Of a stretch of DNA of 64,000 nt, positions 39,120 through 49,255 are shown piece after piece. Below the pieces are notes generated by a model. The model was not told the DNA's origin. It searched no databases and saw only the letters and a list, made by a program, of their open reading frames with translations. This DNA comes from an uncultured Christensenella sp. (GTDB taxonomy: Bacteria; Bacillota; Clostridia; Christensenellales; Pumilibacteraceae), in the NCBI GenBank assembly GCA_949948895.1, contig CATLHE010000004.1, forward strand, positions 62,001-126,000. Reading direction: 5' to 3'. Position numbers and translations under genes: made by a program. How positions within the stretch are numbered: the stretch's first letter is position 1; every line of letters starts with the position of its first letter.

Positions 39120-41873
39120 ATGTATTTGGCTTTTATTGCATATCACGGCACGGTGGGAGAAGAAGGCACGGAACGGATAGCGCAGGCAATATGTCAGACT
39201 TTTACTCAGTTCGGGCATTCGCACCTTCCCTACTGCGGACCGTGTACGGACGAGCATACTTTTGAAAAACACATGACGGACGTCATTCCGTATTCGCAAC
39301 TGTTTTTGCTTGTCGTCAATGATTTTTGCCCGCAACAAAACGGGCAGATAGACCAACGCAAAGTGGACGGCGGCGCGGGGTATCTCTGCGAAGAAATCAA
39401 ATCGTTCCGTAATCTCGTAAAACGCAACACCCGAAACGTTAAAGACTTTGCCGTTTATTACTGCGGCAACAAGCGGAAAAACTACGGCGAAATAGTTTCT
39501 TACGTAAGAAACCTGTTGCGCCCGCTTGATCCCGACGACACGCTGTACACAGGCAACAATTACTACATAACCGACTTAAAAGATCTGTCGGCTTGGGTAA
39601 AAACGCGGAACAGATCGACGGAAACAAACAGTATTTTTTCCGACGAGTATGCGCCGTTCGAGCCGTTGGAAGAAAAAGTAAAGGACTTGGTCGAAAACAA
39701 AAAGCGCGGCGGAATGCTCATAGAAATGAAGCGCGGAATGGGCAAGACCCGATTTATAAACCACGTCAAAAAAGACTTGTACCCCCAAAGCGCCGTAGCC
39801 ATACACTTTACGAGAGATCAAGGCTATGTCTCTCTCGGCAAGTTCCGCTCGGATTTCGTATCTCAGCTCAAAGAACATTTGGGCGGCGCCGAAGAACCCG
39901 TATTTTTGGACGACTACGGCGAACTCAACAGAACAAACTTCGCGCGCTTTCTAAACGATTTCAAAAAGTCGGCGTTCCCCGACAAAACGCTTGTCGTATG
40001 CCTCGACTCCGTCGACGACGGCAAGTCCGCAAACGGCAAAACTTCCGTTTTGGATCTGTTCGGCGATCTGTCCTTATTCGACGAGAATATAGTATTCTTA
40101 TTCACGGCAAAGATCCCCGAGGACGGCGGCGACTACTCGCATATAATGAAGGAGTTTTTGTCCGCGTTCGGCGGCGAACGCATAACGGTAGACGAGAACA
40201 ATATGCAGTATTTACAGTTTTTGTACTTGTATTACAGCAATCACATTTTGGCAAAGTTCAGCCCTGTGCAGGTAAAACAAATAAACCCGCGCTTCCTTTT
40301 CGAAGCGGTCAAGCCCAAGGACATGCTGTCTTTTTCCATCTTGTTCAGAGTGGTCAATCTTTATCTTTCCACGACGCAGGAGGAAGACCCCAAAATAATA
40401 GCGTCAATAGAAGAAGCGCTTAAATTCTACTACGATTTTTTGCGCGAACACTCTAGCCAAACACACCAATACGACGATTTTATCACCGCGCTCATCATAC
40501 TTGCCCTATCCGACAGACCGCTGAACAAAGAGCAGTTGGACGCGGTCTCCGCGCAGTTGCTCTGTAAAAACGTTTCCGACGCGTTCCTCAAAAACACGTC
40601 GGCGCTGTCGATATTGGTGAACACGATATACAGCCGCGACAAAGCTCCGCTATACGAGATTCGCCACGAAAAGATAAAAGAAATGATAGAGCACGACGAG
40701 GAAACTTTCCGTATCCGCTCGTCGCTTTTGGATAATATCGGTTTCAAGCTTGGCGCACTCCGTTCAAGCGACCTTTCGCTATTGGACTTTGTAAAAGATA
40801 ATGAGAGCGTTATTTATCTCTTTAAAGGATATTTGCGGTATTCGGACGACGCGCAACAGATACGGGATCATTTCGAGACAATGGCTTGCCGATTATCGCA
40901 CCTTGATTGGGGCGACAAAATGGCGCTTATTTCCCGTGAGCAGGACTTACTTTCGTTTATAGTAAACTCCGAACATTTTGAAAATTTACAGCCGCTTACG
41001 CAAGCGAAATATTTGACACGTATCGCGATAGACGAGATGGTATTGCATTGGAGCTTCGATTCGCGCATGCACTTCGAAAAAGCATTGACGCTCTGGCAGT
41101 ATATCGGCGAAGAGAATCTGTCGGACGGCGAGCTGTACAACTACTTCGATTTTCTGACGGCTTACGGGAATTGCGTTACGCGCTTCGAAGACGAATATAA
41201 GAGCGTACAAATTTTTGAAAAAGCGGTCGAGGTAAGCCGCAAGCTCAAAGCAAAAAACCTAATACCGCTGAGGGATTTTACAAACAATTTATTAGCTTAC
41301 GGCAACGTGCTGACCATTGTCAAGCAGGACTACGACGGCGATAAAAAAGCGATAGACGAGGCGCGCGAACTGTTGGAGAACTCGTTGGACCCGATGGACC
41401 TCGGGCAACGCGGTTGGCTGCATCAACGCATTTCATATTGGAACGAGTGCCAAGGCAATACCGCTTTGGCGCGCCAGGGCTTAAAAGACGCGATGGACGC
41501 GTACGAATACGCCTTTACAAAAGCGCCCGACAGTTTCTATTTCGGCAATCTCATCGTGGCTACCGGCGCGCACCTCAATGCGCTCAGCTATGAAAAGCCG
41601 TTTGAGGAACTCGCGGAATACATGCGCGAAAAAGAAGAGAATTTGTTTATTATGGCAAAGAAGATCGATTTCTTTTCCTACATGGAAGAAGCGATCTTCT
41701 ACCGCCTCATCGGCGATATATACGCGCACTACGACCGCAAAAACGACGCTTTGATACAATACAACAAAGCGCTCTCGCTACTGCGCTCCGCCGAGCACGA
41801 CACGGGCGTGGTAGACTCTATGTCCAAGTACCAAGCGCTTATATCGGACAAAATAAATAAACTGTGTGAATAG
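39120..41873 (+). CDS. TIR-like STAND NTPase with helical-repeat C-terminus, candidate anti-phage gene
   Basis: The 917-residue protein has three parts. Residues 1-165 look like a TIR fold: MYLAFIAYHG at the start, PYSQLFLLVVNDFC near residue 58, and an AGYLCEEIKSF near residue 88, whose glutamate sits where TIR NADases have their catalytic one. Residues about 185-460 form a STAND-type NTPase, with Walker A MKRGMGKTRF near residue 205, Walker B LVVCLDSVDD near residue 295 and a sensor-like NIVFLFTAKIPED near residue 325. From about 480 the sequence is helical and repeat-like (FEKAVEVSRKLKAKN, LARQGLKDAMDAYEYA, ALIQYNKALSLL), typical of TPR sensor domains. By analogy with Avs and NLR-like bacterial immune proteins, TPRs sense, STAND oligomerises, TIR consumes NAD. 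That mechanism is inference. Confidence 0.75.
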   Translation: MYLAFIAYHGTVGEEGTERIAQAICQTFTQFGHSHLPYCGPCTDEHTFEKHMTDVIPYSQLFLLVVNDFCPQQNGQIDQRKVDGGAGYLCEEIKSFRNLVKRNTRNVKDFAVYYCGNKRKNYGEIVSYVRNLLRPLDPDDTLYTGNNYYITDLKDLSAWVKTRNRSTETNSIFSDEYAPFEPLEEKVKDLVENKKRGGMLIEMKRGMGKTRFINHVKKDLYPQSAVAIHFTRDQGYVSLGKFRSDFVSQLKEHLGGAEEPVFLDDYGELNRTNFARFLNDFKKSAFPDKTLVVCLDSVDDGKSANGKTSVLDLFGDLSLFDENIVFLFTAKIPEDGGDYSHIMKEFLSAFGGERITVDENNMQYLQFLYLYYSNHILAKFSPVQVKQINPRFLFEAVKPKDMLSFSILFRVVNLYLSTTQEEDPKIIASIEEALKFYYDFLREHSSQTHQYDDFITALIILALSDRPLNKEQLDAVSAQLLCKNVSDAFLKNTSALSILVNTIYSRDKAPLYEIRHEKIKEMIEHDEETFRIRSSLLDNIGFKLGALRSSDLSLLDFVKDNESVIYLFKGYLRYSDDAQQIRDHFETMACRLSHLDWGDKMALISREQDLLSFIVNSEHFENLQPLTQAKYLTRIAIDEMVLHWSFDSRMHFEKALTLWQYIGEENLSDGELYNYFDFLTAYGNCVTRFEDEYKSVQIFEKAVEVSRKLKAKNLIPLRDFTNNLLAYGNVLTIVKQDYDGDKKAIDEARELLENSLDPMDLGQRGWLHQRISYWNECQGNTALARQGLKDAMDAYEYAFTKAPDSFYFGNLIVATGAHLNALSYEKPFEELAEYMREKEENLFIMAKKIDFFSYMEEAIFYRLIGDIYAHYDRKNDALIQYNKALSLLRSAEHDTGVVDSMSKYQALISDKINKLCE

Positions 41874-43083: not shown

Positions 43084-43474
43084 TGGTGGAGATGAGGGGA
43101 GTTGAACCCCTTTCCGACACGGATATGCGGGGACTTCTACAAGTTTAGTCTATTGCTCGAAGTCCGCGCGCACACCGCAACAAACAAAGGTATACGCGCG
43201 CAAGGTCTTTTTACTCGGTATGGTTCGACCATTCCCGCGCCGAGTTGCCCGCCGTTACTTTAAGCCCGCGCTCCCGCCGACGGGTAGCGGGTGCGGACTC
43301 TCGCGGAACTTACGCCGCGAATGCCATTGCGGGAGCCGCAACCGGAGCTGCGAACTTCACCACTTTGGCGTTTTCCTTTTTGTTGGCAATTAAAGCCTTT
43401 TGCGTTTTTAGGTAGCCGACCCTACCACTTGCTTTCCTTCGCAAGCCCCGTGCCGTCGAAGCCTTTACATCCCC
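43084..43474 (-). ncRNA. ssrA: tmRNA
   Basis: tmRNA rescues ribosomes stalled on broken messages and tags the incomplete protein for proteolysis. The 3' end (minus strand) is GGGGTTCAACTCCCC followed by TCATCTCCACCA, a T-arm-like end with encoded CCA. The 5' end is GGGGATGTAAAGG then TTCGACGG, the usual opening, which pairs with the 3' acceptor (one G.U). The tag frame is read from GCC at about 43369 and gives AKVVKFAAPVAAPAMAFAA then TAA at 43310-43312. It ends in AFAA instead of the common ALAA. Length of about 391 nt is normal. Its protein partner smpB is at 59.7 kb. Confidence 0.95.
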
Positions 43475-46819: not shown

Positions 46820-47497
46820 TTACGAGTTTTCTTCGCCGCCGTCGGTGCAATCGGGGCAAGGCAGCTTGCCCGTCGCCGAACAGTCGCGGCAGTAAACCGT
46901 TCCCATAGAGCAATTTATACAAGTTGTTTTTCCGTCCGTACATAATATGCAGTCTTGCTCGCCGCTACCCATGCACAGCGTACACAGTTCTTCGCCTCTG
47001 CCGTTACACGAATAGCAATCGCGGTCGCCTATTCCGAAGCAACTCGTGCAAATTGTATCGCCCATACCGCTGCAATAAATGCATCTTTTGTATTTGTAAC
47101 TGCCGGTTATATAGTCGTATTCGTATCTTTTTCCCAGCCCGGAGCAGTAATTGCATCTTTTTCTTCCGCCGGTGCAAAGCGGGCAGTCGGTTTTACCTCT
47201 TCCGAGGCAGCTCATGCACATGCTGTTGCCGTCGCCGTCGCAAAGAAAGCATTCGACCGAGCCCAACCCCAAGCATTTGGTACAAAGCAGCTCATACAGT
47301 CCGCCGCATTCATCGCACAAATAAATGCCGCGCCCGTCACAAGACGAACAGCTTATGTTGTGCGTGTCGTAGCATGTTTGACATACGAAATGCACTCTTG
47401 CCATTTGCCCGCCGCAACCGCAAAACAGCATGACGACCGTTGCGAGCATAACCGCTACACACAATAAACGATTTTTATTTGTGGCACGTGCTTTCAT
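46820..47497 (-). CDS. Exported cysteine-rich protein with about 16 CxxC knuckles
   Basis: A GGGAGGG site precedes the ATG at 47497. The 225-residue protein has a basic N-terminus, a hydrophobic signal (LLCVAVMLATVVMLFCGC) ending in CGC near residue 27, and probably a lipid anchor. The whole remainder is made of CxxCxGxGxxxC-like units of about 10 residues, similar to the DnaJ zinc-finger repeat (CSSCDGRGIYLC, CTKCLGLGSVEC, CMSCLGRGKTDC, CTSCFGIGDRDC, CYSCNGRGEELC). I count 16 CxxC pairs. DnaJ proteins have four; an exported array this long is unusual. Metal binding is likely. A promoter lies 172 nt upstream. Confidence 0.8.
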   Translation of the reverse strand: MKARATNKNRLLCVAVMLATVVMLFCGCGGQMARVHFVCQTCYDTHNISCSSCDGRGIYLCDECGGLYELLCTKCLGLGSVECFLCDGDGNSMCMSCLGRGKTDCPLCTGGRKRCNYCSGLGKRYEYDYITGSYKYKRCIYCSGMGDTICTSCFGIGDRDCYSCNGRGEELCTLCMGSGEQDCILCTDGKTTCINCSMGTVYCRDCSATGKLPCPDCTDGGEENS

Positions 47498-47668
47498 TTT
47501 TGCCCTCCCTATGAAAAAGCCGTTTAGTTCGGCGCCGCGCTCATACCGAGCCGACTTTCACACAAAACGCTCAAACCCTGTCGCACCGTGATGATCGAAT
47601 AGACGTCAAATGTAACGATGATATCTACGGAAAACTCCCGTTTGAGTTCTCGGCTCGAAGTTAATATA

Positions 47669-47697
47669 ATTATATCATACTGCACGTATAAATGCAA
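47669..47697 (-). promoter_or_regulatory. sigma-A promoter of the CxxC-array lipoprotein gene
   Basis: TTGCAT, 17 nt, TATAAT on the minus strand, with a predicted leader of about 165 nt that holds nothing I recognise. Confidence 0.65.
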
Positions 47698-47713
47698 GTT
47701 GTTTATAAAATGT

Positions 47714-48045
47714 CAAACATTTGGTTTGCGGAGCGATGCCAACCAAATGTTGGACCAAACACGGTTTGGATGTTTGTCGTGTATTTACTTTTTTGTTTGT
47801 TTTACGTTTCACCCGAAAAGCGCCGGACATGATGTGGGGTATCGTTTGTTTGGCGTGACAACAATGCGGCGGTTCGCCTAGATTCCTCGCGAGCTCGGAA
47901 TGACAATAGGCGGTAGTGAACGTTCAAGCAATCGTAGGGGGCGACGCCCTCGTCGCCCCGCTGTATTTTGTAACGCCTTTATTCGGGTGCAATATCAAAC
48001 AAATCACTGGCGAAAACACACGACAAACATCCAAGCTGTGCTTGG
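47714..48045. repeat. Hairpin-repeat cluster 8
   Basis: From left: A plus with three hairpins in a row (CAAAC/GTTTG at 47714, CCAACCAAATGTTGG at 47739, CCAAACACGGTTTGG at 47755; to 47820), B minus (47882-47901 with ATTCC/GGAAT), C variant GGGGCGACG/CGTCGCCCC (47938-47959), A minus (47979-48045). The last unit ends 4 bases before the stop of the RadC-like gene. No gene lies here. Confidence 0.85.
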
Positions 48046-48049
48046 TTGG

Positions 48050-49255
48050 TTAGTCGGTATTATTGGATTTTTCGTTTGTTGCGTAGTCCATGATCGCTTT
48101 TTTGGCTAGTTTTTCGCAAATATCGGGCGACGACGCGACTGCGGAAAGCGGCGTGAACGTAAACACGCCGTCGCCCTTGCCGAACGCTCCGCCCGACAGC
48201 GAGTAATATCCGAACTCGTTGAATATGAGACAGTCCAAAAGTCGCGCATCCATATTTTCCAATATTTCCGCCAATACGTCCACGCTCTCGATATAATCGA
48301 ACGCCGAAAAGAATAATTCGTATTCCCGCCTGCCCACTATCACATACGCCGCATCATGCGCGTAAACCGCGCCGACTATCCGTTTCGCATCGACCACGGC
48401 ATCGCCCGAATACACTTCGTGCGCGATGAGTCGGGCATGCTTATCCAAGTACGCGACGTGCGTGCCTCGCGCACCGTCGCCGAACAGTATCATGCCGAGA
48501 TAATTAACGACGGCGACGCGATCGGCAAGCCGAACTTCGCTCGCACCGTGCCATATGTTTACGTCGGATATCGCCTCGATGACTTTTACTGCGAGCTCGG
48601 TGACGTTTTTCACGCCGGCAAGCGCAGTCGGCGTGTCGCGCAATACCTGTGCAAGCGTCGCACGCTCGAGTATCTCATGCGCGGCGGCTTTTGTGTCTTT
48701 TCGCGGAATCACATACGACAGCGCGGTTTCCATTATCTCGACGTCGCTCATCGCATCGAGATATTTATCTTTGCTTACGGCAGTGCGTAATCTTTTTCTA
48801 TGCCCTTCATGCGGATTGAGTTTGCTTTCGGCAGGTGGTTCGGACATACTCGACCGATCTGTGGTACGCTTATCGTCGGGCGTTGCTTTATCCGTCGTTT
48901 GTTTATCGGATTTGCTGCCGCGCTTTTTTTCGTATTTATCGCGAGCGGCATGACGCACGCTCGCATCATTGATCACGCGACCTGCCGTTCCGCCTGCGAT
49001 CTCGCTCATGCTGCGCTTATATTCGGAAAGCGCGTCTTGCGCCGATTTGTCGGGCGCGGTCTCGGTCGCAGCTTCGTCAAGTATCGCGTCGGTAAATTTG
49101 CTTATCCGCCGTGCGCGCCGCTTTTCGGCATCTTCGCGGTACAGCGCGTCATTGTTTTCCTTACTCACGCCGTTCCCGACGCTCGATACGTCTTCGCGTT
49201 TTTCGCCATTACCAAAAGACACCCGCGGATCGTCTATTCCGCTACCGTCTGCCAT
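48050..49255 (-). CDS. RadC-like protein with degenerate JAB domain and charged N-terminal extension
   Basis: The 401-residue protein has about 165 charged, low-complexity residues first (many Glu, Lys, Arg and Asp), then a RadC-like helical module: HEGHRKRLRTAVSKDKYLDAMSDVEIMETALSYVIPRKDTK near residue 167, followed by a helix-hairpin-helix-like LAGVKNVTELAVKVIEAI. The C-terminal JAB (MPN) domain is recognisable in outline, but the zinc motif HxHPSG is absent; residues like VYAHDAAYVIVGRREYELF occupy its place. RadC proteins have no clear role. It is probably a non-catalytic relative. The start lacks a strong Shine-Dalgarno. The stop lies next to a repeat hairpin. Confidence 0.75.
   Translation of the reverse strand: MADGSGIDDPRVSFGNGEKREDVSSVGNGVSKENNDALYREDAEKRRARRISKFTDAILDEAATETAPDKSAQDALSEYKRSMSEIAGGTAGRVINDASVRHAARDKYEKKRGSKSDKQTTDKATPDDKRTTDRSSMSEPPAESKLNPHEGHRKRLRTAVSKDKYLDAMSDVEIMETALSYVIPRKDTKAAAHEILERATLAQVLRDTPTALAGVKNVTELAVKVIEAISDVNIWHGASEVRLADRVAVVNYLGMILFGDGARGTHVAYLDKHARLIAHEVYSGDAVVDAKRIVGAVYAHDAAYVIVGRREYELFFSAFDYIESVDVLAEILENMDARLLDCLIFNEFGYYSLSGGAFGKGDGVFTFTPLSAVASSPDICEKLAKKAIMDYATNEKSNNTD

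Follow-up and report, generated by a model that had tools for sequence, protein, structure and literature searches.

An exported array of sixteen CxxC units is probably an eight-rung antiparallel hairpin of the DnaJ/BSD2 kind

What would a protein made almost entirely of CxxC units look like outside the cell, and what holds it together? The question is raised by a gene at 46820..47497 (minus strand) of a 64,000-nucleotide stretch of an uncultured Christensenella sp. assembly (GCA_949948895.1, contig CATLHE010000004.1), hereafter the window. The gene is single-copy in its genome. Its ORF has an ATG start and a translation of 225 aa, and a good ribosome-binding site lies 5' of it (AGGGAGGGCAAAAATG / AGGGAGGG; 47502-47510, minus strand). 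Farther upstream lies a weak promoter-like site (47663..47692, minus strand), a consensus match only (9/12), and upstream of both gene and site is an imperfect 18-bp inverted repeat (47712-47755; 89 per cent), possibly a terminator or a repeat remnant. The Rfam matches in the window are a tmRNA and one tRNA only; upstream of the array gene neither a riboswitch nor another RNA element was found.

The protein begins with a lipoprotein-type signal peptide (residues 1-27, ending in LATVVMLFCG; 47417..47497, minus strand; a PS00013-like match), followed by the lipobox cysteine, Cys28 (47414..47416, minus strand), the presumed site of lipid attachment; the mature protein then has 1+32 Cys. The window lipobox, LFCGC, matches the PS00013-like pattern, departs from the stricter LxxC form (F at -3) and is the weakest of the set, which comprises the window protein and four relatives described below. 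The lipobox of these relatives takes the stricter form (ALCGC in three, LLVGC in G012). The two marks of a bacterial lipoprotein, a signal peptide and a lipobox ending in Cys, are thus present, weakly in the window itself. Every relative starts with a lipoprotein signal, so the array protein presumably carries a lipid anchor at Cys28. The export proposed in the sequence-only reading of this DNA is upheld, by a weak signal in the window and the stricter lipoboxes of the four relatives.

That reading had also counted about 16 CxxC units, and the mature protein contains exactly 16, spaced 10-11 aa apart save for one step of 24 aa; 2000 composition-keeping shuffles of the mature protein gave a mean of 5.3 CxxC and a maximum of 12. 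By their spacing, the units fall into arm 1 (units 1-8, residues 39-122, 47132..47383, minus strand) and arm 2 (units 9-16, residues 139-221, 46835..47083, minus strand). Between units 8 and 9 lies a central loop (KRYEYDYITGSYKYKR; residues 123-138, 47084..47131, minus strand), a predicted hairpin turn that occupies the exact centre in all relatives. The description of the mature part as wholly CxxCxGxG repeats needs qualifying: the repeats are there, but a 10-aa N-terminal linker, the 16-aa loop and a 4-aa tail are not repeat, and the first and second glycine positions are each G in 11/16 units. CxxCxGxG is the consensus, from which single units depart. A recent tandem duplication of DNA was rejected as the source of the units, as adjacent units are no more alike in DNA than others (47 per cent identity, vs 45 per cent for any two).

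Neither Pfam nor NCBIfam has a family that matches the window protein at cut-off. The nearest Pfam family is BSD2_CRD (PF25436), whose 26.8 bits (E = 6.3e-6) fall below the cut-off of 27, and BSD2 is also the closest solved chain by sequence. In the Pfam scan neither the DnaJ central domain (PF00684) nor a J-domain was found: the protein consists of a signal peptide and the array, and lacks the N-terminal J-domain that defines type I J-proteins. The CxxCxGxG motif, its 2+2 fold and its two-motif forms in anti-TRAP and phage DNA polymerases are already known. In the DnaJ domain, four CXXC motifs on an antiparallel sheet bind two Zn (PMC4428491). The window array shares with that domain CxxCxGxG units in equal arms around a central loop, and the ladder predicted below would share with it Cys4 zinc sites on an antiparallel sheet, of which DnaJ has two. 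It differs in having eight units per arm rather than two, which is the symmetry of the 2+2 DnaJ/BSD2 module with four times the units; the DnaJ domain, moreover, lies inside a cytoplasmic chaperone with a J-domain, and its units are less regularly spaced.

The plastid proteins BSD2, ZnJ2 and PSA2 resemble the window array in being stand-alone cysteine-rich domains without a J-domain (6ekb, PF25436). ZnJ2 binds Zn (PMC5818400), and PSA2, a DnaJ-like zinc-finger protein of the thylakoid lumen (PMC4806229), lies outside the usual reducing compartment, a likeness to an exported array. Unlike the window protein, all three have 2+2 units and no lipid anchor, and they belong to plants and algae. The smallest form of the motif is found in anti-TRAP (RtpA; 2bx9, 3ld0), with two CxxCxGxG motifs and zinc dependence (PMC2896485), which has one zinc site, however, and is a cytoplasmic regulator that forms trimers and dodecamers. 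HMO-2011-type phage DNA polymerases likewise carry the motif outside a J-protein, as a CXXCXGXG partial DnaJ domain (PMC9038755), but with two motifs only and inside the polymerase. A metallothionein, being short and disordered with clustered CxC/CxxC and no fixed geometry, is disfavoured on inspection by the fixed 11-aa period and equal arms.

Close relatives of the array occur in 5 of 20 genomes of the genus, including the window's own, and nowhere else in the family, of which 74 genomes were covered; GTDB genomes, when scanned, yielded the same four relatives and no others. They are about 40 per cent identical to the window protein. The earlier proposal had hung on conservation of the cysteines, and this is borne out: between the window protein and G013, a homologue 40 per cent identical overall, the array cysteines are identical at 32/32 positions, vs just 15/96 of the other unit positions. 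In the window protein and all relatives, a single longer step (20-28 aa vs the usual 10-12) lies exactly at the centre, with arms of 8+8 units in the window, G013 and G004, 6+6 in G011 and 5+5 in G012. The mature cysteine totals of the window protein and its relatives (33, 33, 25 and 21) equal 1+4n. As judged from these sequences, the mature family members have no spare thiol, because each has exactly one lipid-bearing Cys and four Cys per unit pair. A phage origin of the window gene was rejected: IMG/VR contains no close relative of the window array protein, and the matches are weak, array-to-array only and to three unannotated huge phages.

The genes around the array had suggested a link to zinc uptake, through a ZIP transporter and a DUF885 lipoprotein. 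If the array were a zinc reservoir, it would keep some eight zinc ions on the cell surface for transfer to the neighbouring ZIP importer; its 32 cysteines suffice for eight Cys4 sites, and the ZIP gene is on the same strand at a distance of 330 bp. The neighbours, however, are not conserved in the relatives. ZIP is a core gene of the genus (14/20 genomes, about 80 per cent identity), whereas the array is confined to five genomes; the two sit on different contigs in G004, G011 and G013 and adjoin each other only in the window genome. In no other genome of the genus is ZIP near the array, DUF885 or the RadC-like gene of the window, and in no relative does DUF885 adjoin ZIP or the array. An operon or functional link of ZIP/DUF885 to the array was rejected on this ground. 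In the window genome, which is 94.5 per cent complete and could hold such genes in its unassembled part, we found no FUR-family (Zur) gene and no DsbA or VKOR family member. Because no relative has ZIP next to the array, and because none of these families was found, we regard the ZIP neighbour as coincidental. The same absences weaken the zinc-sensing and disulfide readings, and zinc-dependent expression of the Zur type is left without support. Tight zinc binding by DnaJ-type Cys4 sites also fits structure better than buffering (PMC4428491), and a reservoir for ZIP is in our judgement unlikely.

The other locations of the gene are varied. In two relatives, G013 and G011, it is found 2.5-4.5 kb downstream of a gene for tRNA-Val(CAC) (L008 6566-6640; L010 6623-6697), among genes mostly without Pfam matches, in what looks like a site of accessory genes, and in G012 it adjoins rpoA. 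Since ZIP and DUF885 do not travel with the array and its loci vary, the array gene is accessory, present at several genomic places.

A wider search used a pattern of three CxxCxG units in 11-aa register, which does not favour symmetric arrays. Among 396 genomes of the order, arrays beyond the family were found in G112, as a lipoprotein with a 5+5 array, and in G044, as a secreted protein with spacings mirrored about the centre (11, 11, 13, 15 and 15, 15, 11, 11). Among 291 genomes of the class, G630 has a 4+4 array by inspection, if the degenerate unit CTAYGC is counted. IMG/VR yielded a few hundred stretches matching the three-unit pattern, from which we took 112 non-redundant complete ORFs with at least six units as a phage test set. 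The number of units is even in 109/112 of these arrays, and of the 106 in which one gap exceeds all others, 102 have that gap exactly at the centre (15.5 expected), although the arrays share ancestry and these are not 102 independent events. With stricter thinning, the longest gap is central in 83/87 (20000 gap shuffles: mean 12.8, maximum 27). Phage arms of 3, 4, 5, 6 and 7 units (3+3 to 7+7) are all found, and a Halobaculum array of 18 units has 15-aa gaps at steps 7 and 11, mirrored about step 9. As far as these sequences go, the equal-arms rule is general, holding for several arm lengths, two types of phage protein, more than one bacterial family, and archaea.

This regularity also bears on the thiol chemistry that the sequence-only reading had offered as a role. 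An extracytoplasmic thiol-disulfide enzyme or redox sensor, with CxxC pairs cycling between dithiol and disulfide, can appeal to the weak thiol-reductase activity reported for the DnaJ domain (PMC4428491) and to the disulfide isomerase role proposed for lumenal PSA2 (PMC4806229). Yet neither DsbA nor VKOR, as a possible driver, was found in the window genome, the cysteine arithmetic leaves no thiol to spare, and independent redox pairs, unlike metal sites, give no reason for equal arms, mirrored spacings or a 1+4n cysteine count. We consider this explanation improbable. What stands of the earlier interpretation, then, is the export, the motif, the number of units and the conserved cysteines; the zinc-uptake link is not supported, the thiol chemistry is improbable, and the main point, equal arms around a central loop, had been missed.

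If the units do form metal sites, they could pair in more than one way. Pairing of neighbours (i with i+1) or in parallel (i with i+8) would give separate knuckles and no single hairpin, and parallel pairing by itself also predicts equal arms. Neighbour pairing within an arm is excluded, because odd arms (3+3, 5+5, 7+7) exist. Parallel pairing needs a crossover of arm length, but the turn is short even in a 7+7 array (a 15-aa step, L119), and the bulges of Halobaculum are placed by mirror symmetry, not by translation. In the AF2 model of a 4+4 phage array (37 sequences, mean pLDDT 82.9), the strand pairs (3-12/102-112, 21-23/91-93, 32-34/80-82 and 43-45/69-71) keep constant midpoint sums (114.5, 114, 114 and 114), which also speaks against a parallel arrangement; the longest pair is made by the two flanks, one ahead of unit 1 and the other following unit 8. 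For the window protein itself, AF2 gave a pLDDT of 30 (4 sequences). Mutual-information coupling between the arms of phage arrays shows a non-significant trend (p about 0.13). We give pairing in parallel or between neighbours very little credence. In the DnaJ structure 1exk, the outer two motifs reportedly pair with each other, as do the inner two.

Foldseek ranks BSD2 first among the best matches of the phage-array model (6ekb, E = 1.1e-3, prob 0.95), with BSD2 8ilb_I at prob 1.00 (rmsd 3.7 over 56 columns), and also lists DnaJ domains, and anti-TRAP at rmsd 1.6-1.8; the E-values are modest and the global TM-scores low. An array profile search of the PDB listed DnaJ (1exk, 6.7e-8, the best match), BSD2 (1.5e-6), EMB2737 and anti-TRAP, and we identified no PDB precedent with more than four units. 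Together, the array sequences and the model argue well for antiparallel pairing in the class, from which we infer it for the window protein.

CxxC-knuckle Cys4 sites accept Fe as well as Zn, as in rubredoxin, and the bacteria are presumably anaerobic, but a rod acting as a short surface chain of iron redox sites is hardly credible, given that all solved relatives of the motif found here are zinc-type proteins and that no adjacent redox partner was found.

The preferred reading is that the window protein is a surface lipoprotein whose mature part forms a single antiparallel hairpin of the DnaJ/BSD2 kind, a metal ladder, and we consider this likely. The chain would run out through units 1-8, turn in the 16-residue loop and return through units 9-16, so that unit i would face unit 17-i and the four cysteines of each facing pair would make one tetrahedral metal site, with eight such Cys4 sites stacked along the rod. 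We hold the architecture itself, one antiparallel rod with eight Cys4 sites, to be highly probable from the spacing of the units and the model of the phage array. Its simplest reading is the DnaJ/BSD2 hairpin with eight rungs instead of two: the 2+2 cysteine-rich fold would be lengthened by adding paired units, and rod length would change by gain or loss of facing pairs, as 8+8, 6+6 and 5+5 in the genus suggest. Metal binding is very likely. By analogy with the known proteins the metal is most likely zinc, and its role is probably structural; we hold both of these assignments lightly. The metal would be mainly a staple, which would let an 11-residue repeat without a hydrophobic core stand on the cell surface as a stiff rod. 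Between the cysteines the side chains vary, and these might bind a polypeptide or partner outside the cell, in the manner of DnaJ and BSD2; that the rod surface binds polypeptides is a tentative suggestion from this analogy, about which we are more doubtful than confident. Zinc storage, redox chemistry and iron-loaded sites are possible as other uses of the same rod.

More broadly, we think it fairly probable that the CxxCxGxG domain is an extendable antiparallel rod, stapled by metal, with anything from 1+1 to 9+9 or more rungs, and not a fixed 2+2 module, that its length changes solely by facing pairs in phages, haloarchaea and bacteria, and that in the window organism the rod now stands alone at the cell surface. 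The open-access literature that we searched contains no description of long equal-armed CxxC arrays, although one may exist elsewhere; as far as searched, long equal-armed ladders would represent an architecture previously known just in its shortest forms. If this is true, a zinc domain that has long passed for a fixed, four-motif part of chaperones turns out to be a ruler-like repeat fold, and the equal-arms sequence rule predicts structure and metal content from sequence alone. Structure predictions would become readable for many phage and archaeal proteins now called 'unknown', surface lipoproteins like the window protein would be explained, and stiff rods that need no hydrophobic core could be designed. 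There would also be an evolutionary puzzle, in that two distant points in one gene would have to gain or lose units in step.

Several of the loci encountered have features of their own. The phage proteins with predicted ladders (L062, L078, L119, L163 and about 200 other IMG/VR loci) are of two types, of about 260-330 aa and about 450-560 aa, the larger having a common N-terminal region followed by a C-terminal ladder. PHROGs and Pfam give them no function, and PF00684 makes a weak, sub-threshold match to one phage array. In G044 (L006/L012), the secreted protein has 1457 aa, with an N-terminal 5+5 ladder whose tip carries an extra CQLC...CVC pair. The haloarchaeal proteins with an 18-unit (9+9) ladder and mirrored bulges are plasmid-encoded (L181, Halobaculum halobium; L394; L395; L180), and the Halobaculum gene always lies between those for a GMC oxidoreductase and an 'alpha-1 4-glucan-protein synthase'. 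In Halobacterium NRC-1 pNRC200 (L180), the ladder is unannotated and directly follows an ISH6 transposase, and its start looks cut off.

In the window, a 917-aa protein (39120-41873, plus strand) matches AAA_16 and a TPR sensor weakly, and its N-terminal region is maybe a signalling domain. It could be an NTPase of the STAND type, but none of the PADLOC defence models matches it. The RadC-like JAB protein (48050-49255, minus strand) scores below family cut-offs and has a long, charged and probably disordered N-terminal half. Close to the array locus lies the tmRNA gene (43084-43474, minus strand), with the tag ANKKENAKVVKFAAPVAAPAMAFAA.
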